A program made the translations under genes and the position numbers. Below, piece after piece: positions 6,685 to 63,528 of a stretch of DNA of 64,000 bases. The number at the start of each line of letters is the position of its first letter. The stretch's first letter is position 1. This stretch comes from Sphingomonas sp. GTDB lineage: Bacteria; Pseudomonadota; Alphaproteobacteria; Sphingomonadales; Sphingomonadaceae. The stretch is taken from contig JAFIGU010000088.1 in assembly GCA_017849555.1 (NCBI GenBank), positions 39,600 through 103,599 on the forward strand, written 5' to 3'. Below the pieces are notes generated by a model. It worked only from the letters and a program-made list of their open reading frames with translations. It was not told the DNA's origin and did no database searches.

Positions 6685-7472
6685 TGACGGGGATCGTCCT
6701 CGATCAGGCGAGCTGGTCGGCCGGCGGCACCCCGATCGTCGCGCCGACCAGCCTCGCTTTCGCCCCCGACAAGGTGAACGTGATCCTCGGCCCCAATGGC
6801 GCGGGCAAATCGACGCTGATGAAGATCGCGGCGGGCCGGCTCAGGCCGACCGGCGGCCGCGTGCTGCTCGACGACCGGGACATCTTCGCGATCGGCGCGA
6901 AGGAACTGGCGCTCCGGCGCGCCTTTCTGTCGCAGCATGTCGAGATCGATTTCGCGATCACCGTCGAGGAAGTCGTGCTGATGGGCCGCTATCCGCATTT
7001 CGCGCGCGCGCCCGGCCACGAAGACCGCCGCATCGTCGACGCCGCACTCGAACTGGTCGGGATGAGCGCCCGCCGCCGCCAGATCTATCCCACGCTCTCC
7101 GGCGGCGAACAGCAGCGCGTCCAGCTGGCCCGCGTGCTGGCGCAGGTGTGGGACGATACGGCGACCCCCGCCCCGCGCACGATCTTCCTCGACGAGCCGG
7201 TCGCCAGCCTCGACATCCACCACCAATTGCAGATCCTCGATCTTATCCGCACCCTGCCCGCACGGCGCTGCTCGATTGTCGTCACCCTGCACGATCTCAA
7301 CCTCGCATTCGATTATGGCGACAGGTTCGTCTTCCTGCGCGACGGCCAGGTGCAGGCGATCGCCGACGATTCGGTCGACATATCCCCCAATCTCATCCGG
7401 CAGGTGTTCGACGTGTCAGCCACCGGTCATAACGACCACGCCGGCAAGCGCGTCCTGCGTTTCCACTTATAG
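6684..7472 (+). CDS. hmuV: Haem/iron-complex ABC transporter ATPase, HmuV-like
   Basis: This is the nucleotide-binding subunit of the importer, 262 aa. The Walker A motif is GPNGAGKST (about residue 36), the signature is LSGGEQQRVQLARVL (about 139), Walker B is TIFLDEPVASLD, and the switch His is in VTLHDLN. The insert AQVWDDTATPAPRTIFLDEP between signature and Walker B is typical of HmuV, where haem-importer ATPases are longer than siderophore ones. I chose the ATG at 6684, which overlaps the permease stop by one base (TGATG). Confidence 0.9.
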   Translation: MTGIVLDQASWSAGGTPIVAPTSLAFAPDKVNVILGPNGAGKSTLMKIAAGRLRPTGGRVLLDDRDIFAIGAKELALRRAFLSQHVEIDFAITVEEVVLMGRYPHFARAPGHEDRRIVDAALELVGMSARRRQIYPTLSGGEQQRVQLARVLAQVWDDTATPAPRTIFLDEPVASLDIHHQLQILDLIRTLPARRCSIVVTLHDLNLAFDYGDRFVFLRDGQVQAIADDSVDISPNLIRQVFDVSATGHNDHAGKRVLRFHL

Positions 7473-7534
7473 ATAAAAGAAACAATAGGTTGCGGCGGCG
7501 CGCAGGCCGCCAGCAGGTCCATCGGGAGTATCGA

Positions 7535-9715
7535 ATGAAAATGCCTCTTATCCGTAGCGCCTCGCTGCTGGTACTCGCGGCCACGATCGGCAGCACGCCG
7601 GCGCTCGCTGCGGACGAGCCCGCCGATCAGACCGTCGTCGTCACCGCGCAGTCGACCACCCCGTTCGACGAGGCCGCAGCGCTTGGCAAGACCGGCACTG
7701 CATTGTTCGATCTTCCGCGCAGCATCCAGATCGTCCCGCGCGAACTGATCGACGAGCAAGGCGGCACCCAGCTCAAGGATACGCTGCGCAACGTCAGCGG
7801 GCTCGTCCAGGGCGGGCAATATTCGTTCGGTTTCTACGACCGCTTCGTCTCGCGCGGGCTCAACGTCACCTTCCTCAACGATGGCCTGCCCGACACGACC
7901 TCCGATCTTGGTGGCTATGTCCATTCGCTGACCGGCGTCGAGCGGGTCGAGGTGCTCAAGGGGCCGGGATCGGCGCTGTTCGGCACCAGCGCGCCCGGCG
8001 GCACGATCAATCTCGCCCATTACCGCCCGACCGACCGCGCCGCGGCGAGCGCCAGCCTGCAATATGGCTCGTTCGACACGGTCACCGCCAACGGATCGCT
8101 GGGCGGGGCGATCGGCGGCGGGATCAATGCGCGCGTCGACGGCCAGTTCCAGCGCTCGGACGGCTATCGCGGCACGCGCAACCGCAGCGGCGAGGTCTCT
8201 GGCGCGCTCGCCTTCCACCCCGCCGACCACGATATCCTCGCGCGGTTCGAATATCGCCGGATCGAAATGCGCCCCGATGCGATCGGTATCCCGTTCGCCC
8301 TGCCGGCCGCGGGGAGCACGCGAGTCGACCCGATCAAGGTCGATCTCGACAGCCGTTATTACACGCCGTTCGCCTTCGCCGATCAGTCGATCAAGCGCGC
8401 GTTCCTCAGCGACGCGTGGACGGTGAGCGACAGCCTCGTCGTCAATCTGCGCGCCGCTTACACCGATCGCAACATCGGTCTCGCTCGCAACGCAGGCGGC
8501 CGCCTCGCCGGCATCGCGCTCACCGGCCGGCAGCTTCGCCAGCAGCAGGACAATATCCACGATTTCGTCGTTCAGGCCGAGCCAACGTGGAAGTTCACCG
8601 CCGGCGCGATGCCGGTCACCCTGCTCACCGGGTTCGAATATCGCAACGTCAGCGCGACCACGCGGCGCAGCACCGCCGATCTGCCCAATATCCCCGACAT
8701 CTATCATCCGGTGACACCGGAAACGAACCTCGCCGCGCTCAACTTCCAGTGCGACCGGGCGCATAGCTGCAACGACGCCAAGGTCGACGGACGGTTCTAC
8801 GGCCTCTATGCGACCGCGCAGATCGATATCACCCCGCGGCTGAAACTACGTCTCGCGGGGCGCGAGGACTGGTTCGGGACCGCGGCCGAGGGCCGCTCGG
8901 TCATTCCGGCCAATCCCGGATCGGAGCATCCGTGCAATCCGCCGCAGCCGACGACGACCTGCGCGTTCATCCCCGGCCAGCCGGTGGTGCGCAACGACGA
9001 ACGCTTCGAATGGGATATCGGCGCGGTCTATCAGATCGCCGATTCCTTCGCTCTGTTCAGCGGCTATGCGAGCAACAGCTATCCGATCTTCAATACCGAG
9101 GAGCCGCAGAGCATCGGCCAAGTGCCCGAAACGGGGACGCAGGTCGAGGCGGGGCTGCGTTTCCGCCAGGGGAATTGGCTCTCGCTTTCCTCCTCGCTGT
9201 TCCACACGACGCGCAAGAACGTCTATGTCATCGTGCTCAACGAGTCCGAGGTCTATTCCTATCGCGTGAAGGGCTGGGAGACCGATCTCAGCCTGCGCCC
9301 GGTGCCGGCGTGGAACATCAACGCCAATTTCACGCTGCAGGATGCGGTGCTGACCGATTATCCGCAGAACCCGACCCAGATCGGCAAGCGCGTGCCGAGC
9401 GTGCCGAAGCGGATCGGCAATGTCTGGACCAGCTACGACATCGCGCTGCCCGAGAAGATCGGCACGCTCCAGCTCGCCGCGGGCCTGCGCTATCGCAGCG
9501 ACTATTTCGGCGACACCGCGCAGACGCGGCTTCTGCCCGGCGCGACGATGGTCGACGTGACCGCCGCTTTGCTCAACGGCCCGTGGACGATCCGCGGCGG
9601 GGTGCGCAACATCGGCGACGCGCGCAATTATGATTATGCCGCCGGCGTCGGCAGCGGCGCGATCCCGGGGCCGGGGCGGACCTTCTTCGTCAGCCTGGGC
9701 GTGAAGACGCTGTAA
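7535..9715 (+). CDS. TonB-dependent siderophore-type receptor
   Basis: An outer-membrane receptor of 726 aa that would bring an iron chelate or haem to the adjacent HmuTUV system. It has a signal peptide (MKMPLIRSASLLVLAATIGS then TPALA), a TonB box-like TVVVTAQ near residue 33, a plug domain with LFDLPRSIQIVPRELIDEQ and VEVLKGPGSALFG, and a 22-strand-type barrel ending in TFFVSLGVKTL. The PRSIQ and KGPGSALFG blocks are those of the FhuA/FecA siderophore-receptor subgroup. The ATG at 7535 is preferred over an in-frame TTG at 7490 because GGGAG lies 6 bases upstream and it begins the signal peptide. I saw no clear Fur box upstream. Confidence 0.92.
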   Translation: MKMPLIRSASLLVLAATIGSTPALAADEPADQTVVVTAQSTTPFDEAAALGKTGTALFDLPRSIQIVPRELIDEQGGTQLKDTLRNVSGLVQGGQYSFGFYDRFVSRGLNVTFLNDGLPDTTSDLGGYVHSLTGVERVEVLKGPGSALFGTSAPGGTINLAHYRPTDRAAASASLQYGSFDTVTANGSLGGAIGGGINARVDGQFQRSDGYRGTRNRSGEVSGALAFHPADHDILARFEYRRIEMRPDAIGIPFALPAAGSTRVDPIKVDLDSRYYTPFAFADQSIKRAFLSDAWTVSDSLVVNLRAAYTDRNIGLARNAGGRLAGIALTGRQLRQQQDNIHDFVVQAEPTWKFTAGAMPVTLLTGFEYRNVSATTRRSTADLPNIPDIYHPVTPETNLAALNFQCDRAHSCNDAKVDGRFYGLYATAQIDITPRLKLRLAGREDWFGTAAEGRSVIPANPGSEHPCNPPQPTTTCAFIPGQPVVRNDERFEWDIGAVYQIADSFALFSGYASNSYPIFNTEEPQSIGQVPETGTQVEAGLRFRQGNWLSLSSSLFHTTRKNVYVIVLNESEVYSYRVKGWETDLSLRPVPAWNINANFTLQDAVLTDYPQNPTQIGKRVPSVPKRIGNVWTSYDIALPEKIGTLQLAAGLRYRSDYFGDTAQTRLLPGATMVDVTAALLNGPWTIRGGVRNIGDARNYDYAAGVGSGAIPGPGRTFFVSLGVKTL

Positions 9716-49283: not shown

Positions 49284-49571
49284 TCGGCCGCACGGCTCGC
49301 GGCCGTCAGACAACTCTACCCTGATTCCCGTCTGAAAGCGGCCTGGTCGTAGTCCACGTACAAGCCGTATTTCGGCGCAGAACCAGCCGCCCGCGCAGAA
49401 CTGTAACGCCAGAAACGAACGCTCGCCCCTATCCGGAACGTGCCGTCCCCTAGTCCGCCGCTGATTGACTGACCCTGGTCGGGAACCGTGGCAATGAAAC
49501 ATGAGCATCACTGATAGCGCAATGCCTTCGGCATCAAGATTAGCCCCTTCGCCGCAGGGCCATCGTTTCTA
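49284..49571. other. Gap with a hairpin after the efflux operon
   Basis: CGGCCGC (49285-49291) and GCGGCCG (49299-49305) form a perfect 7-bp stem right after the channel stop, a likely end of the efflux transcript. The rest to the convergent XdhC gene shows no gene. Confidence 0.5.
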
Positions 49572-50492
49572 TCAACTCTGTCCATTGAATCGCGCGACGA
49601 TCGCGGCTGCGATGGAAAGCGCGATCTCTGCCGGCCCGATCGCACCGATATCCAACCCCACCGGTGCATCGATACGGTCAAGCATAAGCGAAGATACCCC
49701 CGTTGCCGCCAGTCGCTCGCGCCGCGCCACGTGGCTGCGGCGGCTGCCGAGCGCGCCGACATAACCCGCGCCGGCAGCGAGCGCCGCGATCAGTGCCGGA
49801 TCGTCGATCTTGGGATCGTGGCTCAGCGCGACGACGGCCGTCGCCGGGCCCGGGTGATAAGCGGCGACGGCATCATCCGGCCAGCGATCGTCGAGCGTCG
49901 TCTCGGGAAAACGTTCCTCGGTGAGAAACCTGCCGCGCGGATCGATCACCACCGTCGCGATGCCGAGCGACCGCGCCAGCGCGACCAGCGATTGCGCAAT
50001 CTGCACCGCGCCGACGATCAGCAGCCGACGGGGTGCGTCATAACGATTGACGAACGCTTCGCCGGCCACAGGCTCGACGCTGCTTGTTCCGCTCGCAAGG
50101 TCGGTAAATATGTCCAGCGGACGCCCTTCGGCGCGCGCCGCGCCGATCTGCTCGAACAGGTCGGGCGGAAAGCCTTGCGCCGTTACCGGCTGCACCAGAA
50201 CCGAGATCTGGCCGCCGCACGGCAGACCGACCTCCCACGCATTCGCGTCCGCCACCCCATAATGTTTTAGTTGGAACGGGGCGCCCGCGATCACCCGTGC
50301 GGCGGTATCGAGGATATCGCCCTCCACGCATCCGCCGGAAACCGATCCCTCGAACCGGCCATCGGCATGGACGAGCATATGGCTGCCGCGCGGGCGCGGG
50401 GCGGAGCCCCAGGTGGAGATAACCGTCGCCAGCGCCATCGGCGCGTCCTTCCATGCCCGGGCGGCGGCAAGAACAGCATCATTGTCGGCCAT
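49572..50492 (-). CDS. XdhC-family molybdenum cofactor chaperone (PaoD-like)
   Basis: A 306-aa protein that loads sulfurated molybdenum cofactor into the oxidoreductase encoded just upstream. The XdhC N-domain has ALATVISTWGSAPRPRGSHM and GSVSGGCVEGDILDTAARVI (about residues 19-69). The C-terminal NAD-like fold has LLIVGAVQIAQSLVALARSL and VVALSHDPKIDDPALIAALA then GYVGALGSRRSHVARRERLA. The ATG overlaps the stop of the large subunit gene by one base. The gene order FeS, FAD, Mo subunit, chaperone equals that of E. coli paoABCD. Confidence 0.92.
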   Translation of the reverse strand: MADNDAVLAAARAWKDAPMALATVISTWGSAPRPRGSHMLVHADGRFEGSVSGGCVEGDILDTAARVIAGAPFQLKHYGVADANAWEVGLPCGGQISVLVQPVTAQGFPPDLFEQIGAARAEGRPLDIFTDLASGTSSVEPVAGEAFVNRYDAPRRLLIVGAVQIAQSLVALARSLGIATVVIDPRGRFLTEERFPETTLDDRWPDDAVAAYHPGPATAVVALSHDPKIDDPALIAALAAGAGYVGALGSRRSHVARRERLAATGVSSLMLDRIDAPVGLDIGAIGPAEIALSIAAAIVARFNGQS

Positions 50493-52690
50493 CAGATCGG
50501 CGGTAGCCCCTTGAGAAGTTTGTCCGGCGTGATCGGCATGTCGCGCACGCGCACGCCGCACGCATCGAAGACGGCATTGGCGACCGCGGCGCCCGCACCG
50601 GAAATGCCGAGCTCCCCGATCCCTTTCGCGCCGACCGGATTGGCGTGCCGGTCGACCTCCTCGACGAACCACGCCTCGATCTGCGGCACGTCGGCATTGG
50701 TGGGGATGTGATATTCGCCGAAATCGCGGTTGGCGATCGCGCCGGTGCGCGGGTCGATATGGAGCTCCTCATGCAAGGCGTAGCCGAGGCCCCAGATCAT
50801 CCCGCCGATCGCCTGGCTGCGCGCCGTCTTGTGATTGAGGATACGCCCGCAATCGAACACGCCGAGCATCCGCTTCACGCGCACCTCGCCCGTCACCGCA
50901 TTGACCCATGCCTCGCAGAATTGCGCGCCATGCGCAGCCTGGCTGAAGCGGCGGTTGTTCGCGCCGGGATGGATCGTGCCGATCGCGACAATTGGCGTAT
51001 CGCCGACCAAGTCGCCCAGCGGCACGCGGCGATTGCCCGCGATGACGTGGCCGTCCTTGAGCGTCATTTCCTCCGGCGTCGCGCCCATCGCGGCGGCGAG
51101 CGAGCGCACGATATCGTCGCAGGCGAGCGCCACCGACGAGGCGGACGAGGCTGCGCCAAACGAGCCGCCCGATCCGGCGCCGGTCGGGAAATCGCTGTCG
51201 CCCAGCCGCACGTCGACCGATTCGACCGGCAGCCCCAGCGCCTCGCCCGCAACTTGCGCAAGGATCGTATAAGTTCCGGTGCCGAGATCGGTCATGTCGC
51301 TTTCGACTATCGCGCGGCCCTCGCCGGTCAGCGTCACGCGCGCGCTCGAATCCGCCAGAAAATTGACGCGCGCGGCGGTGGCGACACCGTGGCCGACGAG
51401 CCACTCGCCTTCGCGGCGCCGCTCGCGCCTGTCCCAGCCGAACCGGCGCGCGCCCTCGTCGAAACATTCGATCAGCCGGCGCGACGAGAAAGGGCGGCCG
51501 GTCGTCGGATCGCGCTCCGGCTCGTTGCGCCGGCGCAATTCGATCGGATCGAGCCCCAGTTCGCGCGCCAGCTCGTCCATCGCGCATTCCAGCGCGATCA
51601 TGCCGACGGCCTCGCCCGGCGCACGGACCGGGCCATGCGCGACGAGATTCACCGGGGCCACGCGCGTCGTGAAACTGCGATGCTCGCCGCGATAGAGCGC
51701 GATCGCGCCGAGCGGCACCGGCTCGAACGAATTGGCGCCGACCTTCTGGCTGACAAGGCTATCCTGCCCATAGCCAATCAGCCGCCCTTGCGCGTCCGCC
51801 GCCAGCCGGATGCGCTGATAGGTGTCCGACCGGCCATAACAGGCGTGGAAGATCTGCGCCCGCGCAAGCGCGACCTTCACCGGCCGCCCCAGTCGTTTGG
51901 CCGCCACCGCCGCCAGCAGCGCATCCGCGCTGACATTCTTGCCGCCGAAACCCCCGCCGATGAACGGCGAGATCAGCCTGATATCCTCCGGCGCGATACC
52001 CAGCGAATTGGCAAGCACCGGCCGCGCCTGACGGAATATCTGCATCGAACAGCGCAACGTCAGCTTGTCGCCATGCCATTCGGCGATCGTGCCATGCGGT
52101 TCCATCGCGGCATGAACCTGACGCGGGGTGGAATAATCGACGTCCAGCGCCACCGCCGCCTCGGCCATCGCGCGATCGAGATCGCCCTTGACGATATTGG
52201 GGAGCAGCGCGCCTTCCGGCGGCCCGAAGGCATCGCCTTCGCCGTCGCGGGTCGCGAACACGCCGTCCTCCGTCGTACAGGTGACGATCACCGCGCGCGC
52301 CGCGGCACGCGCCGCCTCGAAGCTTTCCGCGATCGCGACGCCGACAATCTCGCCCCAGCTGTCGATCGTCCCGTCATAGGGCTGCACGCGATCCTGCCCG
52401 AATACCGGCGTCTGGCGGGGAAGCGCCTCATCCCCGGCATAGATTGCGAGCACGCCGGGCATGGCCTCGGCATTGGCGGTATCGAACGCCACGACACGCC
52501 CCTTGCCGACCGGTGCGGTGATCGCCACGCCCCACACCAGATGCTCGAGCCGATGCTCCAGCGCATAGCGGGCAGCGCCCGTCACCTTGGCGGGGCCGTC
52601 GATCCGGTCGAGCGGACGACCGAGGATGCCCTGCACCCCGCGATCGAGCGCGAGGCCGGCGTGCGCCTCGTCCATGCGATATTCGGTCAT
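50492..52690 (-). CDS. Molybdopterin-binding large subunit, PaoC-like aldehyde oxidoreductase
   Basis: A 732-aa subunit of the xanthine oxidase family carrying the Mo site. It has [20 protein letters not shown] at the N-terminus, [20 protein letters not shown] and [20 protein letters not shown] for cofactor binding, and [40 protein letters not shown] follows. The C-terminal [20 protein letters not shown] carries the active-site Glu (GELG). The ATG at 52690 overlaps the FAD-subunit stop. It oxidises probably aldehydes, given the paoABCD-like gene order, but purine or aromatic substrates cannot be excluded. Confidence 0.92.
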
Positions 52691-53655
52691 TGTGTCAAAT
52701 CCCGAAGCGCGGCGATCAGCAGACGGCGCGCGAGCGGCATCTTGAAATCGTTGTGGCCGGATCCTCGCGCCTCGCCGAGCAATATGTCCGCCGCAGCGGC
52801 AAAGACTTCGACGCTCGGTTCCCGGCCGATCAGCGCGGCTTCCACTGCCGGATCGCGCCACGGTCGCGGCGCGAGGCCGCCGAAGGCCAGCGCCGCATGA
52901 GCGATCCGCCCGTCGGTCACCTTCACCAGCGCCGCGAGCGAGACCAGCGCAAAGGCATAAGAGGCGCGGTCGCGTACCTTGCGATAGAGGTGTCGCGCAC
53001 CGGCGACCGGTGGCGGCAATTCGACATGGGTAATGAGTTCGCCGGGCTCGAGGACGGTTTCGATTTGCGGCGTGCTTCCCGGCAGGCGGTAGAAATCCGC
53101 GATCGGCAACCGCCGGCACACTCCGCCGGGCATGAGCGTGACGATAACCGCATTCAGCGCCTGCATCGCGACCGGCATGTCGCCGGGATGCGTGGCGATA
53201 CAATCGTCGCTGGTCCCCAGCACGGCGTGGATACGGTTGAAGCCGCCGCGCGCGTCGCACCCAGCGCCCGGCGAACGCTTGTTGCAGCACGCGGCGGTGT
53301 CATAGAAATAATAGCAGCGGGTGCGCTGGAGCAGATTGCCGCCGGTCGTCGCCTTGTTGCGGAGCTGCCCGGAAGCACCAGCGAGCAGCGCGCGGCTCAG
53401 CACCTCGTAACGCTCGATCACGCGGCGGTCGGCGGCGAGATCGCTGTTCGGCACCAATGCGCCGATCGTCAGCCCGCCATCGGCGCGGTCCTCGATCCGC
53501 GCGAGATCGAGCCGGCTGATGTCGATCAGCCGCTCGGGGGTCTCCACCTCCAACCGCATCAGATCGATGAGATTGGTGCCACCGGCGATGAAGCGCCCGC
53601 CAGCCGCGACCGCTGCTTGCGGGCTATCCGCACGCGTGAAGTCGAACGCTCTCAC
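52687..53655 (-). CDS. FAD-binding medium subunit with extra [4Fe-4S] site, PaoB-like
   Basis: A 322-aa flavoprotein passing electrons from the Fe-S subunits. [20 protein letters not shown] (about 17-36) and [20 protein letters not shown] (about 103-122) bind FAD. Cys 114, 123, 124, 133 and 152 ([28 protein letters not shown]) match the insertion that carries a [4Fe-4S] cluster in E. coli PaoB and is absent in most xanthine dehydrogenases. This is the main reason for calling the complex PaoABC-like. It overlaps both neighbours by four bases. Confidence 0.92.
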
Positions 53656-54167
53656 GCCGCCTGCTCCGACTCGATCGACGCAGCGTGAGCCTCGCGGATC
53701 GCGTCGACGATATTGGGATAGGCCGAACAGCGGCAGAGATTGCCGCTCATCCGCTCGGAAATCTCGTCGTCATCGAATATCGGGCGCGCAAGATCGGCGG
53801 ATGCGTGGCTCGGCCAGCCGCGCGCCACCTCGTCCAGCATCCCGACCGCGGAGCATATCTGGCCCGGTGTGCAATAGCCGCATTGATAGCCGTCGTGCCG
53901 GACGAACGCCGCCTGCATCGGATGGAGATCGTCGATCGTCCCGAGGCCCTCGATCGTCACGATCTCATCGTCCTGGTGCATCACCGCCAGCGTGAGACAG
54001 GCATTGATCCGCCGCCCGTTGACGAGAATGGTGCACGCCCCGCACTGGCCGTGATCGCACCCCTTCTTGCTTCCGGCGAGGCCGAGATGCTCGCGCAGCA
54101 GATCGAGCAACGATGTGCGGACGTCGATATCCGCATCATATTGCATCCCGTTGATCGTAAAGTGCAT
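53652..54167 (-). CDS. [2Fe-2S] small subunit, PaoA-like
   Basis: A 171-aa subunit with two [2Fe-2S] clusters. The plant-type ferredoxin site is [16 protein letters not shown] with a later Cys in INACL; the second site is [14 protein letters not shown] and [17 protein letters not shown] chose the ATG at 54167 because GGAGGG lies just upstream. Unlike E. coli PaoA there is no long twin-arginine leader, even using the upstream in-frame ATGs at 54191 or 54218, so this complex is probably cytoplasmic. First gene of a four-gene operon. Confidence 0.92.
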
Positions 54168-54331
54168 CGCGCCCTCCGTCCGCGACAGCATAACGCCGCT
54201 CGGCGGGTTGGTGTCCACATCTTATCTCTGCATCCGTCGGAGAATGCACTCGTCTCCGTCTCGAGGCGACTTTGTGAACGGAGCCCTGGCACACTGCCGT
54301 CGGACCGGATCAAGATGCGAGTCGCTGATAG

Positions 54332-54589
54332 CTGCCAGCAACCGAAATGGCGCAGCTGCTAGCTCGCGTGGAACGCGACAGCCTCGTCCAGCGCAAGCCG
54401 GATCCGGCCGATCGGCGGAGCAGTCTGGTATCACTGGCAGAAACGGCACAGGCCAAGTTGCCGAAAGGGCGGGCAATTCTTCAACAGGCTAACAGCGAGA
54501 TGATGTCGGGCTTCACCAAGGCGGAAGTCGCCATGCTGATCAATCTCTTGCAGCGGGTGACGGCGAATGTCGAAGCCATGGAGCGATAG
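54332..54589 (+). pseudogene. MarR-family regulator, C-terminal remnant
   Basis: LPATEMAQLLARVERDSLVQ then RKPDPADRRSSLVSLAETAQ is the recognition helix and wing of a MarR protein, followed by a normal C-terminal dimerisation helix to MER. The N-terminal half is missing: an in-frame stop lies at 54329-54331 and upstream bases give no MarR-like sequence in any frame. An internal ATG at 54347 could still start an 80-aa product, but this would lack half the DNA-binding unit. It faces the oxidoreductase operon, which it may once have controlled. Confidence 0.75.
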
Positions 54590-54737: not shown

Positions 54738-55045
54738 TCAGCTCTGGCTATGACCACGCGCCATGTCGATCAGAGCCCTGAATGCGGCCGAGGAATTCCG
54801 TCTGTTCGGATAATAGAGACATAGAGGTGCCAGTGGCGGCGTCCATTCTTCCAGAACCCGAACGAGACGGCCTGCCTCGATGGCTTCGCGCACATCGGAC
54901 TCCATGAAGGAGCCGATGCCGATGTGATCGAGCACCGCGATGCGGGAGAGGCTGGCTTCGTCCAGCGTGATCGGGCCTTGAACGTCGATTTGGACGGGCT
55001 GACCATCCTTCTCGAATTGCCAGGGCCTCGGATCGTGCTGCAGCC
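54738..55045 (-). pseudogene. LysR-family regulator, C-terminal remnant
   Basis: [40 protein letters not shown] and [20 protein letters not shown] then [15 protein letters not shown] are the end of the effector domain of a LysR regulator. The frame has no plausible start, the HTH and most of the sensor domain are gone, and upstream of 55045 the homology ends. The rest up to the stop of the next minus-strand gene at 55296 holds nothing I can support. Confidence 0.78.
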
Positions 55046-55295: not shown

Positions 55296-56501
55296 TCAAG
55301 TAACCTGATCCGGAAGTCGCCCGGTGTAGATTGACGCCGGCCGGATCGCCTCACCGGTGCGATATTGTTCGATCGAATGAGCAATCCAGCCGACGCACCG
55401 CCCCAGCACAAACATCGAATCCCGCTTATCTTCCATGAACTGACGTCCGGCAAACTCCGACACCAGCGCATAATCCGGATAAAGGCCCCGCGCATCCTCG
55501 ACGATGGCGATAGCGCGCTTGAGACGTTTCAGGCCGATCGCGTCCCCCATCACGACATCGAGCTGATCGAGCAACGCCCGGGCACGCGGGTCACGGTGGC
55601 GGTAGGCGTCGTAGCCGAAGCCGGGTACCTGATCATCCCCCTTTAGCCGGGCGAGCATCACTTCGTCAGGATCGCCTTCACAGATATCGGTCAGCAACCG
55701 CGTGATGACATCGAACCGGCCAAGTTGCGTGCGCCGCCCCCCGACCAGCAACAGGCCGGCGGCAACCGACCTGTAGGGTGACACGCCAATGCCTGCAACG
55801 CTGCGGACGGCGTAGGTGCTGGGCTCGAAACCGTGATCCGCTGACAGAACGAGCATCCGCCGCACGAAATCCTGCCAGGCGGACGACAGGCCGAGGTGAG
55901 CGCCGACCTGCTCATGGATCGGTGCGGCAGATGGCGCGGGGACGCCGAGCTTGAGCGCGGTGAGGCTCCGCAACACATCGGCGCCGCTCGAGGCCATGCC
56001 GGCGGGCGAGAAATCGAACGACCGAGGGTTCGCGTCCTCGATCAACGGCAATGCAGCGGCAGCGCGCGCGGTGCCGCTTGACGTGCGCAACGTCGCCGCG
56101 ACCTGCCGCATCGTCTCTGGAAATATGGGCAGACGATCGGTGAAAACCGCCGCCTCCGGCTGGTCCCACAATAGAGCCGCGACCTGTTCGAGGCTGTGGT
56201 GCTCGGCCAGTGCGACTGCGTCCATGCCGCGATAATAAAGCGCATCCGGCCCAATCAGCGAAATCGCCGATTCCGGCGGCGGCGCATTCTCGCGGCGCAC
56301 GGGCGGTCTTCCTCGCGCCGTCTTCGCACGCTCGATGTCGGTGCGCCAATATAGCCGCTCCCGGCTGCCGGGAACCGCAACCGACCGAATACCGCGCCGG
56401 CTGACATAGGCATAGAGGGTCGTACGCGAGACGCCTAGGGCGTCTGCCGCTTCCTGCGCCGAAAGGTACATCTGGCCGTCCTCATCATGTACGGAAATCA
56501 T
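55296..56501 (-). CDS. HTH-citrate synthase fold protein, probable ligand-sensing regulator (pseudo-enzyme)
   Basis: A 401-aa protein. Residues 11-62 are an excisionase/MerR-like helix-turn-helix (MYLSAQEAADALGVSRTTLY and ERLYWRTDIERAK). Residues about 75-400 have the citrate synthase fold: GPDALYYRGMDAVALAEH, SADHGFEPSTYAVRSVAGIG, VPGFGYDAYRHRDPRARALL and GRCVGWIAHSIEQY. His223 of ADHG, a substrate-binding position, is kept. The three catalytic positions of citrate synthase appear changed: the LHGG segment reads GRRTQ (about 255-259), GFGH reads GFGY (Tyr297), and the Asp of PNVD reads Ala (PDYA, about 345). So synthesis of citrate is unlikely. It is divergent from a transport-catabolism operon and palindromes lie between them. 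ATG 56501 has AAGGA ten bases upstream; 56522 is an alternative. Confidence 0.85.
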   Translation of the reverse strand: MISVHDEDGQMYLSAQEAADALGVSRTTLYAYVSRRGIRSVAVPGSRERLYWRTDIERAKTARGRPPVRRENAPPPESAISLIGPDALYYRGMDAVALAEHHSLEQVAALLWDQPEAAVFTDRLPIFPETMRQVAATLRTSSGTARAAAALPLIEDANPRSFDFSPAGMASSGADVLRSLTALKLGVPAPSAAPIHEQVGAHLGLSSAWQDFVRRMLVLSADHGFEPSTYAVRSVAGIGVSPYRSVAAGLLLVGGRRTQLGRFDVITRLLTDICEGDPDEVMLARLKGDDQVPGFGYDAYRHRDPRARALLDQLDVVMGDAIGLKRLKRAIAIVEDARGLYPDYALVSEFAGRQFMEDKRDSMFVLGRCVGWIAHSIEQYRTGEAIRPASIYTGRLPDQVT

Positions 56502-56524
56502 CAAGATTGATTCCTTACCCATCC

Positions 56525-56571
56525 TATCGACAATATCGACGATAGCAGACGAATTGACGGAAATCGTCAAC
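56525..56571. promoter_or_regulatory. Two inverted repeats in the divergent promoter of the pseudo-citrate synthase locus
   Basis: CTATCG-N10-CGATAG (56525-56546) and TTGACG-N5-CGTCAA (56555-56571), both with perfect 6-bp arms, in the gap between the HTH-citrate synthase gene and the TonB receptor gene. A partial second copy of the core ACGGAAATC-TCAA lies at 56489-56504, over the regulator's own start codon. Confidence 0.6.
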
Positions 56572-56589
56572 ATGTGAGGGGAGGAGTAA

Positions 56590-59535
56590 ATGCTGGTCAG
56601 CCGGAGTGCGTTGGCGATCGCCATTGTTTCGGGGACGTGGAGCGGCGTTGCGCGCGCTCAGGACACCGCACCGGCTCCTGCGGCAACCGCGCGAGCCGAT
56701 ACGCAGCCCGATATCGTCGTCACCGGCTCCCGCATTGCTCGGCGCGATACGACATCGCAGACTCCGATCGTCACCATCGGGCAGGAGGCGATCGCCTCTC
56801 GCGGGTCACCAACACTGGAGACGACGCTCAACCAGCTTCCGCAGTTCGCGCCGTCCGCGGGATCGGCATCGAGCTTCAACGCGCGCGGCGGGCAGGCTAA
56901 TCTCAACCTGCGTGCACTGGGAAGCCAGCGGACGCTCGTGCTAGTCGATGGCCGCAGGCTCCAGCCGGCCAATCCGGACGGCTCGGCCGACCTCAACGTC
57001 CTACCCTCCGCGCTGATCGAGAGCGTGGAGACGATCACCGGCGGCGCTTCCGCAGTCTATGGTTCGGACGCGATCTCCGGCGTCGTCAATATCAAGCTCC
57101 GTCGACGTTTCGAGGGTGTCGAACTGGGCGGCCAGACGTCGATCACCGACAAGGGCGATGCGGCGACGCGTGAGCTTTCGATCACGGCGGGTACGAGTTT
57201 CGCCGGTGGGCGCGGCAACGTCACGCTGGCGGCCGTCTATTCGGCGCGCGACAGCCTGGGCTTCCGCGCACGTCCCTATCTCGACGATCAGGCGCTTTCG
57301 ACCAACACGCCCAACGGCATCCTGCTGGTCAACGCCGCGAACCTGCCGAGCCAGGCAGCAGTCAACGCAATCTTCGCACGCTACGGCGCAGCGACGGGCA
57401 GCGTCTCCCGATCGACTGCCCTTAGCTTCAACGCGGACGGCACGATCTTCCGCGCGCAGAACAGCCTGCTTGGCTATAATGGCCCGACGACGGGTATCTA
57501 CACCACCTACAACAACAGCCTTTATGCCGACACGGGTTATTTCAATTACGCGCAGGTGCCCCTTGAACGCTACACCGGCTACGGCCGCGCGGAATATGAG
57601 TTGGGCTCGTCGACCAAGATGTTCGTGCAGGGGCTCTACACCCGCTACGACGCCACGACTGCCGGGCCACCGCCCAATTCAAGCTCCACTTCCTCCATCC
57701 TGACGGTTCCCGTCACCAACCCCTTCATTCCGGCGGATCTTCAGGCATTGCTCGCCTCCCGCGCAAATCCGACGGCACCCTTCACGATCCAGAAGAGGTT
57801 CGACGTGCTGGGCGCGCGAACCGAGCATGACCGCTACGACGTCTATCAGATCACCGCCGGTGCCGATGGGAAGCTCGGTCTCGGCGATGTCGCGTGGAGC
57901 GCCTATGCGACGCTCGGCCGCACGCTCTACACCGCGCACGAGATCAATTATCCCAGCATAAGCGCAGTACAGAATCTGCTGAACGCGGCGGACGGCGGCA
58001 ATGAATTGTGCTCGGGGGGCTTCAACCCGTTTGGCCCACAGCCGATCTCTGACGCGTGCCGCGCCTATATCGCGCGCAACGCCGAGAGCACGACCAGCCT
58101 GCGCCAGTTCGTCGTGGAGGGTACGTTGACCGGTAGCCTGTTCGCCCTGCCCGCGGGGAAGGTACGCTTCGCCGCCGGCGCAGATTATCGGCGCACCTCC
58201 TATGCCTTCACGCCGGACGCCGTGATCGCCTCGGGCGACCTCGCCAATTTCCTGCCGACCTCGTCATCGGGCGGGCATGACGCCGTGAAGGAGATCTATG
58301 GCGAGTTGCTGATTCCGGTGCTGGCCGATGTACCGATGTTCCGATCGCTCAACGTAGACCTCGGATATCGTTATTCCGACTATCGGATTTCGGGCGGCGC
58401 GAGCACCTACAAGGCCGATCTGGACTGGAAACCGATCGACGCGGTAATGGTCCGCGGCGGCTATGCTCGCGCGATCCGCGCACCGAGCGTCGGCGACATG
58501 TTCAGCGCGACGACGCTGGACTCAGCGTCGCTCGGTACGCTCGGGCCGATCCCCGGCGGCGACCCGTGCGATATCCGCAGCGGCTATCGCGCGGGGGGCT
58601 ATGCCGGCGCAACGCAGGTGCGCAGCCTGTGCCTCGCGCAGGGCGTGCCCGCCAATCTGATCGACAGCTATATCAACGGCGCGACCCGCGCGCGGACGAT
58701 CACAGCGGGCAATCTGGCGTTGAAACCGGAGACGGCGGACACCTTCTCGATCGGCATGGTGTTCGCGCCCGTCCATGCGAGCGGGCTGTTCCGACGATTC
58801 ACACTGTCGGTCGATTATTACAACATCAAGATCAAGGACGCGCTCGGCAACATCAGCGGCCCGCTCGCTGTCCAGAGGTGCTTCAACGCCGACGGCAGCA
58901 ATCCGACCTATGACCCGAACAACCAGTTCTGCCAGCTCATCAGCCGCGAATCCGCGACCGGGCAGATCGGCGGCATTTCGAACCCGCGCCTCAATCTCGG
59001 CGGCTACAGGACAGCGGGGATCGATATTGCCGCGAGCTGGCCGATCCCGCTGTCGGAATTGGGGCTGAAGAGCGGTACCGTCACGCTGGGCACGGACCTA
59101 AGCTATCTCGACAAATTCGAGATCCAGACGCTGCCGGGCGCAGCGTTCCTCGATTATGCGGGCACGATCCAGAACACGCAGATCGACCTGTTCTCTTCCG
59201 CCCGGCCACGCTGGAAAGCCACATCCTCGTTGCGTTATTCGGGCGAGGCTTTCGATCTCGGCTTACGCTGGCGCTACATCGGGCCGATGAACAATTCGGG
59301 CAATGTCGGCGTGGCCAAGCCGGCGCTGCCCCACACAGCCTCGGTTAGCTATTTCGACCTCGACTTCGGCGTAAAGGTAGCCGGCAATTTCGAGCTGCGC
59401 GGTGGCGTAACCAACCTGTTCGATCGCACGCCACCGATTTCGGTGCTGTCGCCGGTCGGCGCCTATACGATCGATCTCAACACCTATGACATCGTGGGAC
59501 GGCGGATGTTCATCGGGTTCAAGGCGAAGTTCTGA
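56590..59535 (+). CDS. TonB-dependent receptor of the pseudo-citrate synthase locus
   Basis: A 981-aa outer-membrane transporter. Signal peptide (MLVSRSALAIAIVSGTWSGV to ARAQ), TonB box-like PDIVVTGSRIARRDT near residue 40, and a plug with NQLPQFAPSAGSASSFNARG, QRTLVLVDGRRLQPANPDGS, LIESVETITGGASAVYGSDA and ISGVVNIKLRRRFEGVELGG. The barrel ends in GRRMFIGFKAKF. It is a paralogue of the receptor at 25720. GGGGAGGAG precedes the ATG. Its stop overlaps the start of the transporter gene by one base, so receptor and carrier are coupled. Confidence 0.93.
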   Translation: MLVSRSALAIAIVSGTWSGVARAQDTAPAPAATARADTQPDIVVTGSRIARRDTTSQTPIVTIGQEAIASRGSPTLETTLNQLPQFAPSAGSASSFNARGGQANLNLRALGSQRTLVLVDGRRLQPANPDGSADLNVLPSALIESVETITGGASAVYGSDAISGVVNIKLRRRFEGVELGGQTSITDKGDAATRELSITAGTSFAGGRGNVTLAAVYSARDSLGFRARPYLDDQALSTNTPNGILLVNAANLPSQAAVNAIFARYGAATGSVSRSTALSFNADGTIFRAQNSLLGYNGPTTGIYTTYNNSLYADTGYFNYAQVPLERYTGYGRAEYELGSSTKMFVQGLYTRYDATTAGPPPNSSSTSSILTVPVTNPFIPADLQALLASRANPTAPFTIQKRFDVLGARTEHDRYDVYQITAGADGKLGLGDVAWSAYATLGRTLYTAHEINYPSISAVQNLLNAADGGNELCSGGFNPFGPQPISDACRAYIARNAESTTSLRQFVVEGTLTGSLFALPAGKVRFAAGADYRRTSYAFTPDAVIASGDLANFLPTSSSGGHDAVKEIYGELLIPVLADVPMFRSLNVDLGYRYSDYRISGGASTYKADLDWKPIDAVMVRGGYARAIRAPSVGDMFSATTLDSASLGTLGPIPGGDPCDIRSGYRAGGYAGATQVRSLCLAQGVPANLIDSYINGATRARTITAGNLALKPETADTFSIGMVFAPVHASGLFRRFTLSVDYYNIKIKDALGNISGPLAVQRCFNADGSNPTYDPNNQFCQLISRESATGQIGGISNPRLNLGGYRTAGIDIAASWPIPLSELGLKSGTVTLGTDLSYLDKFEIQTLPGAAFLDYAGTIQNTQIDLFSSARPRWKATSSLRYSGEAFDLGLRWRYIGPMNNSGNVGVAKPALPHTASVSYFDLDFGVKVAGNFELRGGVTNLFDRTPPISVLSPVGAYTIDLNTYDIVGRRMFIGFKAKF

Positions 59536-61010
59536 TGGCCGACGCCGCCCCCTCCACCACCATGCCGCGCGTCGGCAACGGCACACTGACGCTCTATTCG
59601 CTGGGCGCGGTGTCGTCGGGGATCAAGCTCAAGATCCTCGAGACCTTCCTGCTGATCTTCTACAATCAGGCGATCGGGCTGCCGCCGGCTGCGGTGTCCT
59701 CGGTAATCCTGATCGCCACGGTGTTCGATACCGTCACCGATCCGGTAGTCGGCTGGTACTCGGATCGCCTGCGCACCCCGCTGGGGCGGCGCCATCCGCT
59801 GATGTATGGTGCGGCGCTGCCGCTGGCGATCGCGTTCTTCCTGCTGTGGAACCCGCCGACATCGTTCGGGCACACCGCCACTTACGTGTGGATGATCGCC
59901 AGCTATCTGGTCGTCCGTTTCGGCTATTCGCTCTATGAGAACAGTTCCAAGGCGCTCGCCCCCGAGCTTGTGACCGATTATGACCGTCGCACCACGCTGG
60001 TGTCGCTGCGCATCTTCTTCCGCACGCTGGCGGGACTTGGGGCCACCGTGCTCGCCTATCAATATTTCCTGAAGGTGGCGCCGGATGGTACCGGCGGCGT
60101 AACGGATCGAAACGGCTATTTCGCCTTCGCCCTGTTCTGCTCGGTGGTGATCCTGGTGGTGATCCTGATTTCCGCACGGGCAACGCAGTGGATCGTCCCC
60201 TGGTTGTCGAAGCCCGCCCGTGACGGTGGCGGGCCGTGGCGCGCCTTCGGCGAGATGTTCGGCATGTTACGTAACCGTTCCGCCCTCGCGATTCTTTCGG
60301 TCGGGATGCTGGTGTCGATATCGAGCGGCGTGCGCAATGGGCTGGAACTTTATTTCGGCCTCTATTTCTGGGGTCTGAGCCAACATCAGCTTTCTGGGAT
60401 CGCGACGATGACTGCGATCGCCACCTTTGCCGGCGCGGCGCTGGTGCCGGTGGTGGCGCGAAACATGGGCAAGCGCGAGGCGGCGCTCGCGGCTTTTACG
60501 CTCGCGGTGCTCTTCGCGGGCCTGCCGATCTTGCTGCGGCTGATCGGCCTGATGCCCGCCAACGGAACGATGGCGCTCTACGCCATTCTGATGGCCGATA
60601 TCTTCGTCTCGAGCGTGCTCTACGTGATGACCGCCGTGCTGCTGAACTCGATGTTGGCGGATGTAACCGATGAACTGGCGGTCGCCACCGGCCGTCGTTC
60701 CGAAGGCTTGCTGTTCGCCGCGGATGGCTTCTTCACCAAGGCAGTATCGGGTTTCGGTGTGATGATCTCGGGCGGCCTGCTGGCGTTCATCGCTTTCCCG
60801 GCGCACGCGCACGCAGCGACGGTCCCGGCTGCAACCCTTTGGTGGCTCGGCGCTCTCTATCTACCGATCGTGATATTGGTGAACGCCGCCGCCATCGCGA
60901 TGGTCTGGATGTTCCGCATCGATCGCCACCGGCACGAGGAAAACCTCCGCACCCTGGCCGAGGATGCTGCGAAACGGACCGCCGAGCCCGCTCCCTCCGC
61001 GCTTACCTGA
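59535..61010 (+). CDS. MFS transporter, GPH (glycoside-pentoside-hexuronide) family
   Basis: A 491-aa carrier with twelve helices. ATVFDTVTDPVVGWYSDRLR and TPLGRRHPLMYGAALPLAIA (about residues 56-95) are the GPH signature, in which the Asp residues bind the coupling cation. SYLVVRFGYSLYENSSKALA, PELVTDYDRRTTLVSLRIFF and ELYFGLYFWGLS follow. Many GPH members move sugars, but this branch is also found in clusters for terpenoid or aromatic compounds. The substrate is presumably that of the coupled TonB receptor. Confidence 0.9.
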   Translation: MADAAPSTTMPRVGNGTLTLYSLGAVSSGIKLKILETFLLIFYNQAIGLPPAAVSSVILIATVFDTVTDPVVGWYSDRLRTPLGRRHPLMYGAALPLAIAFFLLWNPPTSFGHTATYVWMIASYLVVRFGYSLYENSSKALAPELVTDYDRRTTLVSLRIFFRTLAGLGATVLAYQYFLKVAPDGTGGVTDRNGYFAFALFCSVVILVVILISARATQWIVPWLSKPARDGGGPWRAFGEMFGMLRNRSALAILSVGMLVSISSGVRNGLELYFGLYFWGLSQHQLSGIATMTAIATFAGAALVPVVARNMGKREAALAAFTLAVLFAGLPILLRLIGLMPANGTMALYAILMADIFVSSVLYVMTAVLLNSMLADVTDELAVATGRRSEGLLFAADGFFTKAVSGFGVMISGGLLAFIAFPAHAHAATVPAATLWWLGALYLPIVILVNAAAIAMVWMFRIDRHRHEENLRTLAEDAAKRTAEPAPSALT

Positions 61011-61023
61011 GGACTGACATGCC

Positions 61024-61845
61024 ATGCCCGCCTCTTCCGACCCCCGCCTTAGATTCCCGAAAGCGCAGATCGCCTACGCGGCAGACCCGCGCTTCTCTTA
61101 TTGCCTCCATCTACCGACAGCGCTGCTGGAAGATCCCAAGGGGTTCCGCCTGCTGATCGCCGTCCACGGCTCCGCGCGCGGCTGCATGGCCTATCGCGAC
61201 GCGCTCGCGCCATTCGCCGATCGCAACCGTTATGTCGTGCTTGCGCCCCTGTTCCCGGTCGGCGCGCTGGGGGACGGCAATCCTGACGGGTATAAATATA
61301 TCGCGGAGGGCAGCATCCGCTATGATCGCATCCTGCTCGGCATGATTGCGGAGGTGGAAGCGTTGCTCGGCATTGCCTTCCCTCGTTTCGACCTGTTCGG
61401 CTTCTCCGGCGGCGGGCATTTTGCGCACCGCTTCTACTATCTGCATCCCGATCGGCTCGCATCCGTATCGGTCGGTGCGCCGGGAGGAGTCACGCTGATC
61501 GACGACAGCCGGGACTTTTGGATCGGCACGCGCGATTTCGCGCAGCGCTTTGGCGCGCCGCTCGATCTGGAGGCGATGCGCAAGGTGCCCTCGCAACTAA
61601 TTATCGGCGAACTCGATACCGAGGAGTTCGTCTATCCGTCGGGCTTCGCCGCCCATTCGGCCGACATGGCATCGCTCGGGCGCAACCGGTTGGAGCGTAA
61701 CGCCACCCTGCTCCGCAACTGGCTTGAGCACAGCATGCCCGCGGCGCAGACAATCGTCCCCGGCATCGCCCACGCCGGCCTGAGCGCAACCCCTGCGGTC
61801 GAACGCTTCCTCGAAAATCTTGTGAACCTGCAGGCACCAGCATGA
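61024..61845 (+). CDS. Alpha/beta hydrolase
   Basis: A 273-aa hydrolase without a signal peptide. The nucleophile elbow is FDLFGFSGGGHFAHRF with Ser128 in GFSGG. The oxyanion region is LLIAVHGSARGCMAYRDALA (about 43-62). The acid is probably the Asp in IIGELDTEEFVYPSG and the His is in VPGIAHAGLSATPAVERFL. The fold resembles PHB-depolymerase or esterase-like proteins. It probably cleaves an ester or lactone in the imported compound. Its stop overlaps the next gene by four bases. Confidence 0.85.
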   Translation: MPASSDPRLRFPKAQIAYAADPRFSYCLHLPTALLEDPKGFRLLIAVHGSARGCMAYRDALAPFADRNRYVVLAPLFPVGALGDGNPDGYKYIAEGSIRYDRILLGMIAEVEALLGIAFPRFDLFGFSGGGHFAHRFYYLHPDRLASVSVGAPGGVTLIDDSRDFWIGTRDFAQRFGAPLDLEAMRKVPSQLIIGELDTEEFVYPSGFAAHSADMASLGRNRLERNATLLRNWLEHSMPAAQTIVPGIAHAGLSATPAVERFLENLVNLQAPA

Positions 61846-63236
61846 CCCGACTGACCAACACAGTGAACGTGATCGTGCCCGTGGGGGCGCTGGGCACCGG
61901 CGTACGCGCATCGAACCTGGAGGAGGGGCTGGCGCTTGGCGCAGACGCGATCGCATGTGACGCGGGTTCGACCGATAGCGGCCCCGCATATCTCGCCACC
62001 GCACAATCCAAATATTCGCGCGACGCGGTGAAGGCTGATCTGCGCCTGCTTATGCTCGCGCAGGCAAAAGCCCGGATACCGTTGCTGATCGGATCGTGCG
62101 GGACGAGCGGTGCCGACGCCGCGCTCGACTGGACCCGCGACATCGCGATCGAGATCGCCCGGGAGGAGGGTCTCTCGCCACGGATCGCCCTGCTCTATTC
62201 GGAGCAGCGGCCCGCCGACATGGCGGCTGCTGCCGCCGCCGGTGCGATCACGCCGCTCGCGCCAATGACGACGGTCGATCCGGCGATGTTCGCGGCGTGC
62301 GACCATATCGTCGCGCTGATGGGACCGGAGCCATATGTCGCCGCGATCGAGGCGGGTGCGGACATCGTGCTCGGCGGACGCACCACCGACACTGCTGTGC
62401 TCGCCGCGATCCCATTGATGAAGGGTGCGGATGTGGGCTCGGCCTGGCATGCAGCGAAGATCGCCGAGTGCGGCGGCTTGTGCACTCGCAACCCGCGCGA
62501 GGGCGGCGTGCTGATCCGCATCGGCACGGAAGCGTTCGAGATCGAGCCGCTCGACGCCGCCAACGTCTGCGATCCCTATTCGGCGTCGTCGCACATGCTC
62601 TACGAGAACAGCGACCCCTTCCATCTGGTCGAGCCCGGCGGAATCCTCGACGTGACGGAAGCACGCTATCGCGCCGTCGACGATCGCGTGGTGCAGGTGC
62701 GGGGCTCGCGCTTCGATCCGCGTCCTTATACGATGAAGCTGGAGGGCGCTGCGGGCGGCCCGTTCCAGACGATCATGCTGGTCGGTATCCAGGACCCGAA
62801 GGTCCTGGGCGAAATCGACCGCTTTCTCGCACAGATGCAGGAAATGATGACGGCCCGCATCTACGCCGTGCTCGGCAAGGCGATCGGCGATTTCAACATC
62901 TCGCTGCGCGCCTATGGCTGGAATGCGGTATCCGGCACGACGGTGGCCCCGCCCGCCACGCCACCGCGCGAGGTCGGGCTGCTGTTCGTCGCCACCGCGC
63001 GGACGCAGGACTTGGCCACGCTGATCGCCAAGACCTGCAATCCGCTGTTCTTCCACATGCCGCTCGATCGCGAGATGGAATTGCCGAGCTACGGCTTCCC
63101 CTTCTCCCCCGCCGAGATCGGGCGCGGGCGCGTGTTCGAGTTCAAGCTGAACCACGTCATCCGGGTCGATGATCCGATGGCGCTGGTACGCACCGTCATG
63201 ATCGAAAGCGCGGAGTTCGCCGATGCCCAGGGTTAA
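61842..63236 (+). CDS. AtuA-like (DUF1446) acyclic terpene utilisation family protein
   Basis: A 464-aa cytoplasmic protein. It opens with VPVGALGTGVRASNLEEGLA then IACDAGSTDSGPAYL, a block typical of the AtuA family. LLIGSCGTSGADAALDWTRD and AGADIVLGGRTTDTAVLAAI follow, and GPFQTIMLVGIQDPKVLGEI lies in the C-half. AtuA itself belongs to the citronellol/geraniol pathway of Pseudomonas, where its exact step is unclear. Proteins of this size that pair with DUF4387 are found in many gene clusters of unknown substrate. It overlaps both neighbours, so all three proteins are made together. Confidence 0.88.
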   Translation: MTRLTNTVNVIVPVGALGTGVRASNLEEGLALGADAIACDAGSTDSGPAYLATAQSKYSRDAVKADLRLLMLAQAKARIPLLIGSCGTSGADAALDWTRDIAIEIAREEGLSPRIALLYSEQRPADMAAAAAAGAITPLAPMTTVDPAMFAACDHIVALMGPEPYVAAIEAGADIVLGGRTTDTAVLAAIPLMKGADVGSAWHAAKIAECGGLCTRNPREGGVLIRIGTEAFEIEPLDAANVCDPYSASSHMLYENSDPFHLVEPGGILDVTEARYRAVDDRVVQVRGSRFDPRPYTMKLEGAAGGPFQTIMLVGIQDPKVLGEIDRFLAQMQEMMTARIYAVLGKAIGDFNISLRAYGWNAVSGTTVAPPATPPREVGLLFVATARTQDLATLIAKTCNPLFFHMPLDREMELPSYGFPFSPAEIGRGRVFEFKLNHVIRVDDPMALVRTVMIESAEFADAQG

Positions 63237-63528
63237 TGAGATCTGCCGATACATACGCTCGAAGAACGCCGGCCCGTTCTGGATTACGGTGGATCTGTTC
63301 TTCAAGGATCGGAGCTCGTTCGATCTTTATGCGCGGTCCGAGGCTCTTTCTGCCGGGCGGTTAGCCGGGATTTTCGGGGTACCGGAAGATTCGGTGAAAT
63401 GGTTCGCTGTCCCCGATCTCAATGTCGTCAAATTCTCTTACCCGCGAACCGCGCCTCAGGGCGGCATGATCGAACGCGATATGCATGGCGGACAGCAATT
63501 CGCGCGCTTGCTGGAGATCGTGGCATAG
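63223..63528 (+). CDS. DUF4387 family protein
   Basis: A 101-aa protein with the DUF4387 pattern: EICRYIRSKNAGPFWITVDL, FFKDRSSFDLYARSEALSAG and VKWFAVPDLNVVKFSYPRTA then RDMHGGQQFARLLEI. It overlaps the AtuA-like gene by 14 bases. In other genomes the two occur side by side or fused, so DUF4387 is probably a subunit of the AtuA-like enzyme. Function unknown. Last gene of the operon that starts at 56590. Confidence 0.9.
   Translation: MPRVNEICRYIRSKNAGPFWITVDLFFKDRSSFDLYARSEALSAGRLAGIFGVPEDSVKWFAVPDLNVVKFSYPRTAPQGGMIERDMHGGQQFARLLEIVA

Follow-up and report, generated by a model that had tools for sequence, protein, structure and literature searches.

A citrate synthase fold probably reused as a transcription regulator beside an AtuA-DUF4387 operon in Sphingomonas

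The use of enzyme folds as the sensors of repressors is a known principle. In the ROK-family repressors NagC and Mlc, an HTH sits on an enzyme fold that has lost catalysis and kept ligand binding. These repressors differ from the protein described here in their sugar-kinase fold, an unrelated domain, and in their operator. AtuR, the repressor of the atu cluster, belongs to the TetR family and is likewise unrelated to citrate synthase. Its gene lies beside that of AtuA, and it is reported to bind inverted repeats located between atuA and atuR (PMC4847356). While the principle is established, no description of a citrate-synthase-derived transcription regulator was found in the literature searched, judged from listings and abstracts, and a wider search on transcription factors derived from enzymes yielded nothing relevant.

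The protein considered here is encoded in a stretch of 64,000 nucleotides of Sphingomonas sp. DNA, hereafter the window. Its predicted structure resembles that of the 2-methylcitrate synthase PrpC (3o8j) with a TM-score of 0.68-0.70 (query length), but with an rmsd of 5.7 Å or more, and it has the pocket arginines in common with PrpC and the citrate synthases, from which it differs in its replaced catalytic triad and its N-terminal HTH. The same architecture of HTH and citrate synthase (CS) domain, including the TLYAYVSR helix and the operator, is found in proteins annotated in RefSeq as 'citrate synthase family protein'. Unlike the window protein, these triad-bearing HTH-citrate synthases keep the catalytic residues and are accompanied by a partner citrate synthase in 40 of 41 loci; a function for them was not found in the literature searched. 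We consider it likely that the window protein is a one-component regulator made from a citrate-synthase fold, probably a repressor, which senses a citrate-like tricarboxylate and controls a catabolic cluster.

Domain architecture and predicted fold

The HTH-pseudo-citrate-synthase gene occupies positions 55296-56501 on the minus strand and encodes 401 amino acids when read from the ATG at 56501. Translation may instead begin at residue 11, where an in-frame ATG (56471) is preceded by GAGGA at a distance of seven bases; this start would place the predicted operator outside the gene. That an HTH is fused N-terminally to a citrate synthase domain, as originally predicted, was borne out by Pfam: HTH_17 covers residues 12-59 with the TLYAYVSR helix (56325-56468, minus strand; 31 bits, cut-off 27), and Citrate_synt (PF00285) covers residues 77-389 (55335-56273, minus strand; 119.7 bits, cut-off 27). 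The HTH also matches the excisionase-type model TIGR01764 (29.3 bits against a cut-off of 28.8), while its score with MerR_1, the HTH model of the MerR family, stays below the curated cut-off (17.8 against 21.6 bits).

Structure prediction, which had been proposed as a check, returned a complete citrate-synthase fold, with a mean pLDDT of 89.2 for the AlphaFold model and 2-methylcitrate/citrate synthases as its best Foldseek matches (E 3e-13). The curated full-length citrate synthase enzyme models were not reached, the best being NCBIfam NF009005 (87.1 bits, cut-off 332). The same genome encodes a separate canonical citrate synthase; in that comparison PF00285 gives the canonical enzyme 456 bits and the HTH-CS protein 118. 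A locus whose protein is 99% identical was found in Sphingomonas lycopersici (L078).

Active-site residues, relatives and selection

HTH-CS proteins are widespread but patchy across the genomes searched. With the window protein as query (E ≤ 1e-20) they were detected in 6/249 genomes of the family; a three-row profile (E ≤ 1e-30) recovered them from 9/151 genomes of the genus, 33/337 of the class and 48/398 of the phylum, the own genome included; among those nine genus genomes, the degenerate type that lacks the catalytic residues occurs only in the own genome and in G295. A scan of contigs gave at least 514 stretches encoding a relative, the best 80 of which were kept, and 153 HTH-CS and 96 other CS ORFs were classified from the collected loci. 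The duplicates L002, L019 and L022 and the broken frame of L117 were left out before counting. A profile of the degenerate clade then split the HTH-CS ORFs into 42 above 400 bits and 110 below, with a wide gap between the two groups (439.8 versus 339.0 bits). The 42 clade ORFs include apparent same-genome duplicates (L050/L090 and L051/L100) and the near-identical L003/L078, and 30 of them remain below 90% identity.

The catalytic positions were mapped by alignment to the genome's own canonical citrate synthase, the two histidines (HGG and GFGH) and the aspartate (PNVD) being what we take to be the catalytic residues of citrate synthase. All three had been predicted to be replaced. For the histidines the alignment agrees: Thr258 (55728-55730, minus strand) stands in place of the HGG His, which is lost in 42/42 clade ORFs, and Tyr297 (55611-55613, minus strand) in place of the GFGH His, which is lost in 36/42. 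The ADH histidine, expected to be retained, is present as His223 (55833-55835, minus strand), with His in 36 clade ORFs and Gln in 6. Three arginines of the carboxylate pocket, Arg306 of DPR (55584-55586), Arg368 of GR..GW (55398-55400) and Arg387 of IRP (55341-55343; all minus strand), are each kept in 42/42 clade ORFs; their positions are presumably those that hold the carboxylates of oxaloacetate or citrate in citrate synthase structures. In the triad-bearing HTH-CS proteins (n = 110), the HGG His was found in 110, the GFGH His in 106, the Asp in 110 and all three arginines in 110.

Replacement of the aspartate is the weakest of the three assignments, as the aligners disagree. MAFFT places Ala345 (55467-55469, minus strand) at its position and finds the Asp absent in 42/42 clade ORFs, whereas profile-profile alignment with hhalign places Asp343 there, two residues earlier. 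In the AlphaFold model of the window protein the bridge residue is at Pro342 and the helix runs from Tyr344, and in that of the triad-bearing relative L116 the bridge residue is at Pro345 and the helix runs from Ile347. Because the Pro bridge and the start of the helix coincide in the two models, Asp348 of L116 would correspond to Ala345, and the helix register of the two models favours replacement of the Asp in the window protein. The alternative of a retained Asp343, whose spacing to GW equals that of real citrate synthases, was provisionally rejected on this register.

Within the clade, the substitute for the GFGH His differs by lineage (Ala, Tyr, Ser, Pro or Phe), and the HGG loop often carries a GRR..GR-like motif. 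In a Pseudomonas/Alloalcanivorax subgroup (L093, L094, L105, L089, L099, L091) the sequence reads GFNH, with a His aligned at the GFGH position; the HGG His is gone in this subgroup, as is the Asp by MAFFT.

The absence of catalytic residues would also suit a regulator without small-acid sensing, in which the CS domain serves as a mere dimerisation platform or as a binder of a partner protein, and citrate synthases are in general dimers or higher oligomers. Such a domain would need neither the invariant arginines nor the mostly kept ADH His, although the argument from the arginines is tempered by the fact that the last pocket arginine crosses the dimer interface in known citrate synthases. We regard this explanation as unlikely.

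In a quick tree of 82 rows, from which the catalytic columns had been removed, the 26 degenerate rows form one side of a branch with an SH-aLRT of 100, and a second tree again gave 100 for the branch of the degenerate clade. The exact branching point of the clade among the other HTH-CS proteins was not settled by the first tree, which was computed without bootstrap, drew a long-branch warning for L033 and contains L045, a truncated HTH-CS labelled as CS. The clade is under purifying selection, with dN/dS values of 0.03-0.20 in 11 pairs, two of which have very few changes, and the ORFs of the clade other than L117, from many genera, are full-length open frames. Both observations stand against a decaying, non-functional citrate synthase gene, an explanation to which the missing catalytic residues and the broken frame of one relative, L117, would lend themselves but which is almost certainly wrong. 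In L117 (9956-11161; Nitrospirillum viridazoti) the HTH-CS frame is broken in two, unlike in the related L085 and L086.

Neighbouring genes and the predicted operator

The original prediction had placed the gene divergent from a catabolic operon, and this arrangement was recovered at 56590-63528 on the plus strand. The first gene of this probable target operon encodes a TonB-dependent receptor (56590-59535; Pfam). It is followed by an MFS_2 transporter (59535-61010; Pfam), a protein without a Pfam match that appears alpha/beta-hydrolase-like by eye (61024-61845), an AtuA family protein (61842-63236; PF07287, 74.3 bits) and a DUF4387 protein (63223-63528; PF14330), all on the plus strand.

Neighbours were counted in those fetched loci that span 9 kb or more, 37 degenerate and 41 triad-bearing. 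AtuA is nearby in 35/37 degenerate versus 0/41 triad-bearing loci and DUF4387 in 34/37 versus 0/41, while a partner citrate synthase is nearby in 0/37 versus 40/41. The Fisher p of 4e-20 for AtuA is overstated, because the loci are related, Bradyrhizobium supplying many of the 41. AtuA is missing from the fetched stretch of two degenerate loci of Bradyrhizobium. Clustering of the neighbours in 38 loci gave 24 for CitMHS, 26 for 2-hydroxyacid dehydrogenase, 23 for MmgE/PrpD and 13 for aconitase, counts that are rough since the clusters contain shadow ORFs and Pfam was run on one or a few of the ORFs in each cluster. The four families deal with acids of the citrate, methylcitrate or aconitate type. 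Neither CitMHS nor PrpD nor aconitase was among the ten window proteins scanned with Pfam, and the ligand is therefore deduced from the relatives.

A position inside a catabolic cluster would also fit a bifunctional protein that regulates and still catalyses another aldol- or lyase-type reaction in the AtuA pathway, for which PutA, a bifunctional enzyme and regulator, provides a precedent. Strong purifying selection and the kept pocket arginines and ADH His are in line with this. However, by alignment the fold has lost its acid-base residues, and the lineage-variable substitute at GFGH is unlike a new conserved active site, though the GRR..GR-like motif of the HGG loop is common; we hold bifunctionality to be unlikely.

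The short citrate synthase encoded beside triad-bearing HTH-CS genes (L038, L024, L008 and other loci) has a Glu at the catalytic Asp position. Of the 90 CS ORFs without an HTH that were examined, mostly partners and with the canonical one among them, 85 have Glu there. The triad-bearing HTH-CS proteins keep the Asp and have mostly lost the Arg after GFGH, and they may work together with the partner citrate synthase as a pair.

The predicted operator lies at 56491-56511 on the minus strand, 79-99 bp before the TonB gene. Its core, the 12-bp inverted repeat ATCAATCTTGAT at 56500-56511, shares two bases with the upstream one of the two candidate start codons. The motif (A/G)TCAAT(C/A)TTGAT is common to the upstream regions of degenerate and triad-bearing HTH-CS genes: AATCTTGA occurs in 13/26 degenerate upstreams (shuffled mean 0.2; top 8-mer count in 50 shuffles 5) and ATCAATAT in 29/40 triad-bearing upstreams (shuffled maximum 6). 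The fitted sites read GTCAAT(C/A)TTGATT in the triad-bearing group, where 39/40 score over 15. For the degenerate group they read GT(A/C)AATCTTGAT, and 24/26 exceed a score of 16; each fit was trained on the very sequences that it scored.

When a matrix was trained solely on the triad-bearing group, its top match in the whole window was 56491-56511 with 12.2 bits, the next match reaching 3.7. The locus-best match of this matrix lay within 220 bp upstream in 18 of 38 degenerate ORFs (the near-copy L078 counted; L003, L013, L050 and L051 left out) and elsewhere in the locus, partly at linked genes, in the remaining ones; in the triad-bearing loci, which overlap with the training set, it lay in the 220 bp upstream in 41/41. 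Across 27 degenerate loci, the triad-bearing matrix found 19 sites of at least 12 bits versus 0 in reversed loci, and the clade's own, partly self-trained matrix found 62 versus 0 at 12 bits or more and 82 versus 6 at 8. Sites no more than 420 bp from the starts of linked genes, some of which were named by homology and not scanned, were seen for CitMHS (L087, L090, L097, L100), DUF1302 (L090, L097, L101), AtuA (L100), cyclase (L109, L112, L113), 2-hydroxyacid dehydrogenase (L085), TonB (L084) and lipase-like genes (L089, L091), and for aconitase in L094, where a divergent AbrB-type gene also starts. An exact match to RTCAATMTTGAY is found a single time in the 4.87-Mb genome, at the HTH-CS gene, and a reversed control pattern also occurs once; the evidence from the exact pattern is its location at the gene and not its genome count. 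A search of the window for the operator with one mismatch showed no enrichment, with 3 matches and as many in 17/100 shuffles.

The palindromes that had been noted in the intergenic region held up in part. The 12-bp inverted repeat is the conserved operator, and a 17-bp direct repeat was found in addition, with 15/17 positions alike in copies 66 bp apart, which was reached in 0/200 shuffles. The stretch that most resembles a palindrome, the 22-bp quasi-palindrome at 56524-56545 (9/11), on the other hand, was discarded, being equalled or exceeded in 31/200 shuffles. The second copy of the direct repeat, a near-copy of 56491-56507 located at 56557-56573 (plus strand) and 16 bases before the TonB gene, is a possible second operator; it is absent from the six best matches of the matrix in the stretch.

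Also beside the HTH-CS gene, at 49572-54179 on the minus strand, are genes for XdhC and a three-part xanthine-dehydrogenase-like molybdenum hydroxylase, which are not common neighbours of the clade and have no good operator match near them. They were rejected as targets, since of the eight best matches of the matrix in the window the one closest to them, at 49562, has 1.6 bits. Between these genes and the HTH-CS gene lie two short ORFs, 54347-54589 (plus strand) and 54738-54935 (minus strand), which by eye resemble C-terminal fragments of a MarR and a LysR regulator and are possible regulator remnants.

Residue 34 of the HTH (YVSRK/YVGRK) varies with operator position 10: Gly34 goes with T in 6/6 cases and Ser34 with G in 55/58. 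This pair is the strongest of the 49 x 12 pairs looked at, and with three independent changes, in which the operator is concordant in 2.7 on average (sign test p 0.25), the covariation is suggestive only. A Cupriavidus oxalaticus plasmid (L009) carries two degenerate HTH-CS paralogues about 5 kb apart (588-1802 and 6968-8209), which differ in residue 34 and in their operators, GTCAATCTCGAC and GTAAATCTGTAC.

Binding of the HTH-CS protein to the motif is a prediction, and an AT-rich motif near promoters could be part of a promoter only or be read by another regulator. The motif nevertheless tracks the HTH-CS gene across two groups with different neighbours and, as weaker evidence, varies with HTH residue 34; we consider it very unlikely that the HTH-CS protein is not its binder.

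Proposed mechanism and evolutionary origin

Clade-wide loss of the catalytic residues under purifying selection, the kept pocket arginines and an operator conserved before the gene and close to linked catabolic genes lend good computational support to the central idea of the original prediction, that a transcription factor has been made from a citrate-synthase fold. For this regulator we infer DNA binding, a repressor sign, a dimer geometry, a ligand and a domain movement as follows. Its HTH, probably in a dimer, would recognise (A/G)TCAAT(C/A)TTGAT operators in the intergenic region that separates the regulator gene from the TonB-MFS-AtuA-DUF4387 operon. Two HTH heads on the inverted repeat ATCAA-TC-TTGAT fit the dimeric body of a citrate synthase. 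The regulator would probably repress both its own gene and the operon; an operator at or adjoining its own start, together with the near-copy before the TonB gene, is a layout that suits a repressor of both sides. The former active site would no longer catalyse, and its three arginines would bind a citrate-like tricarboxylate or a breakdown intermediate of it. Citrate synthases adopt a closed state around bound oxaloacetate or citrate, which provides a ready ligand-driven movement: binding of the ligand would shift the open/closed state of the CS domain, the DNA would be released, and the genes for uptake and breakdown would be turned on.

As to the ligand, for which the original prediction had named an oxoacid or an acyl-CoA, CitMHS, MmgE/PrpD, aconitase, 2-hydroxyacid dehydrogenase and AtuA among the relatives' neighbours point to a citrate-like tricarboxylate. 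The three kept arginines would also suit an oxoacid, while the remodelled HGG loop would speak against an acyl-CoA.

The protein had been proposed to have evolved from a metabolic enzyme, which holds for the reused citrate-synthase fold but not for a direct origin, as the HTH fusion is common to the triad-bearing family. Since a wide family with catalytic residues shares the fusion, the order of events is most simply that fusion came first and that catalysis was lost later, once. In a broader reading, for which the chances are about even, both HTH-CS groups form an undescribed class of regulators with a citrate-synthase sensor. The triad-bearing group would sense the reaction state of its divergent, Glu-bearing partner, and the clade of the window protein would have lost partner and catalysis once, have been taken over by AtuA-type catabolic clusters and now use the former active site to sense a citrate-like tricarboxylate.

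The predicted operator is defined well enough for direct testing, and the linked genes outline an AtuA-DUF4387 catabolic route whose substrate is probably citrate-like. Annotations as 'citrate synthase' call for caution in proteins of the HTH-CS kind, which may have no enzymatic role in the TCA cycle. If the regulator reading is true, this family would show clearly how an enzyme of central metabolism became a gene switch, and its living relatives would still display the likely stages: first a fused HTH together with the catalytic residues, then a clade in which partner and catalytic residues are gone and the ligand arginines are kept.
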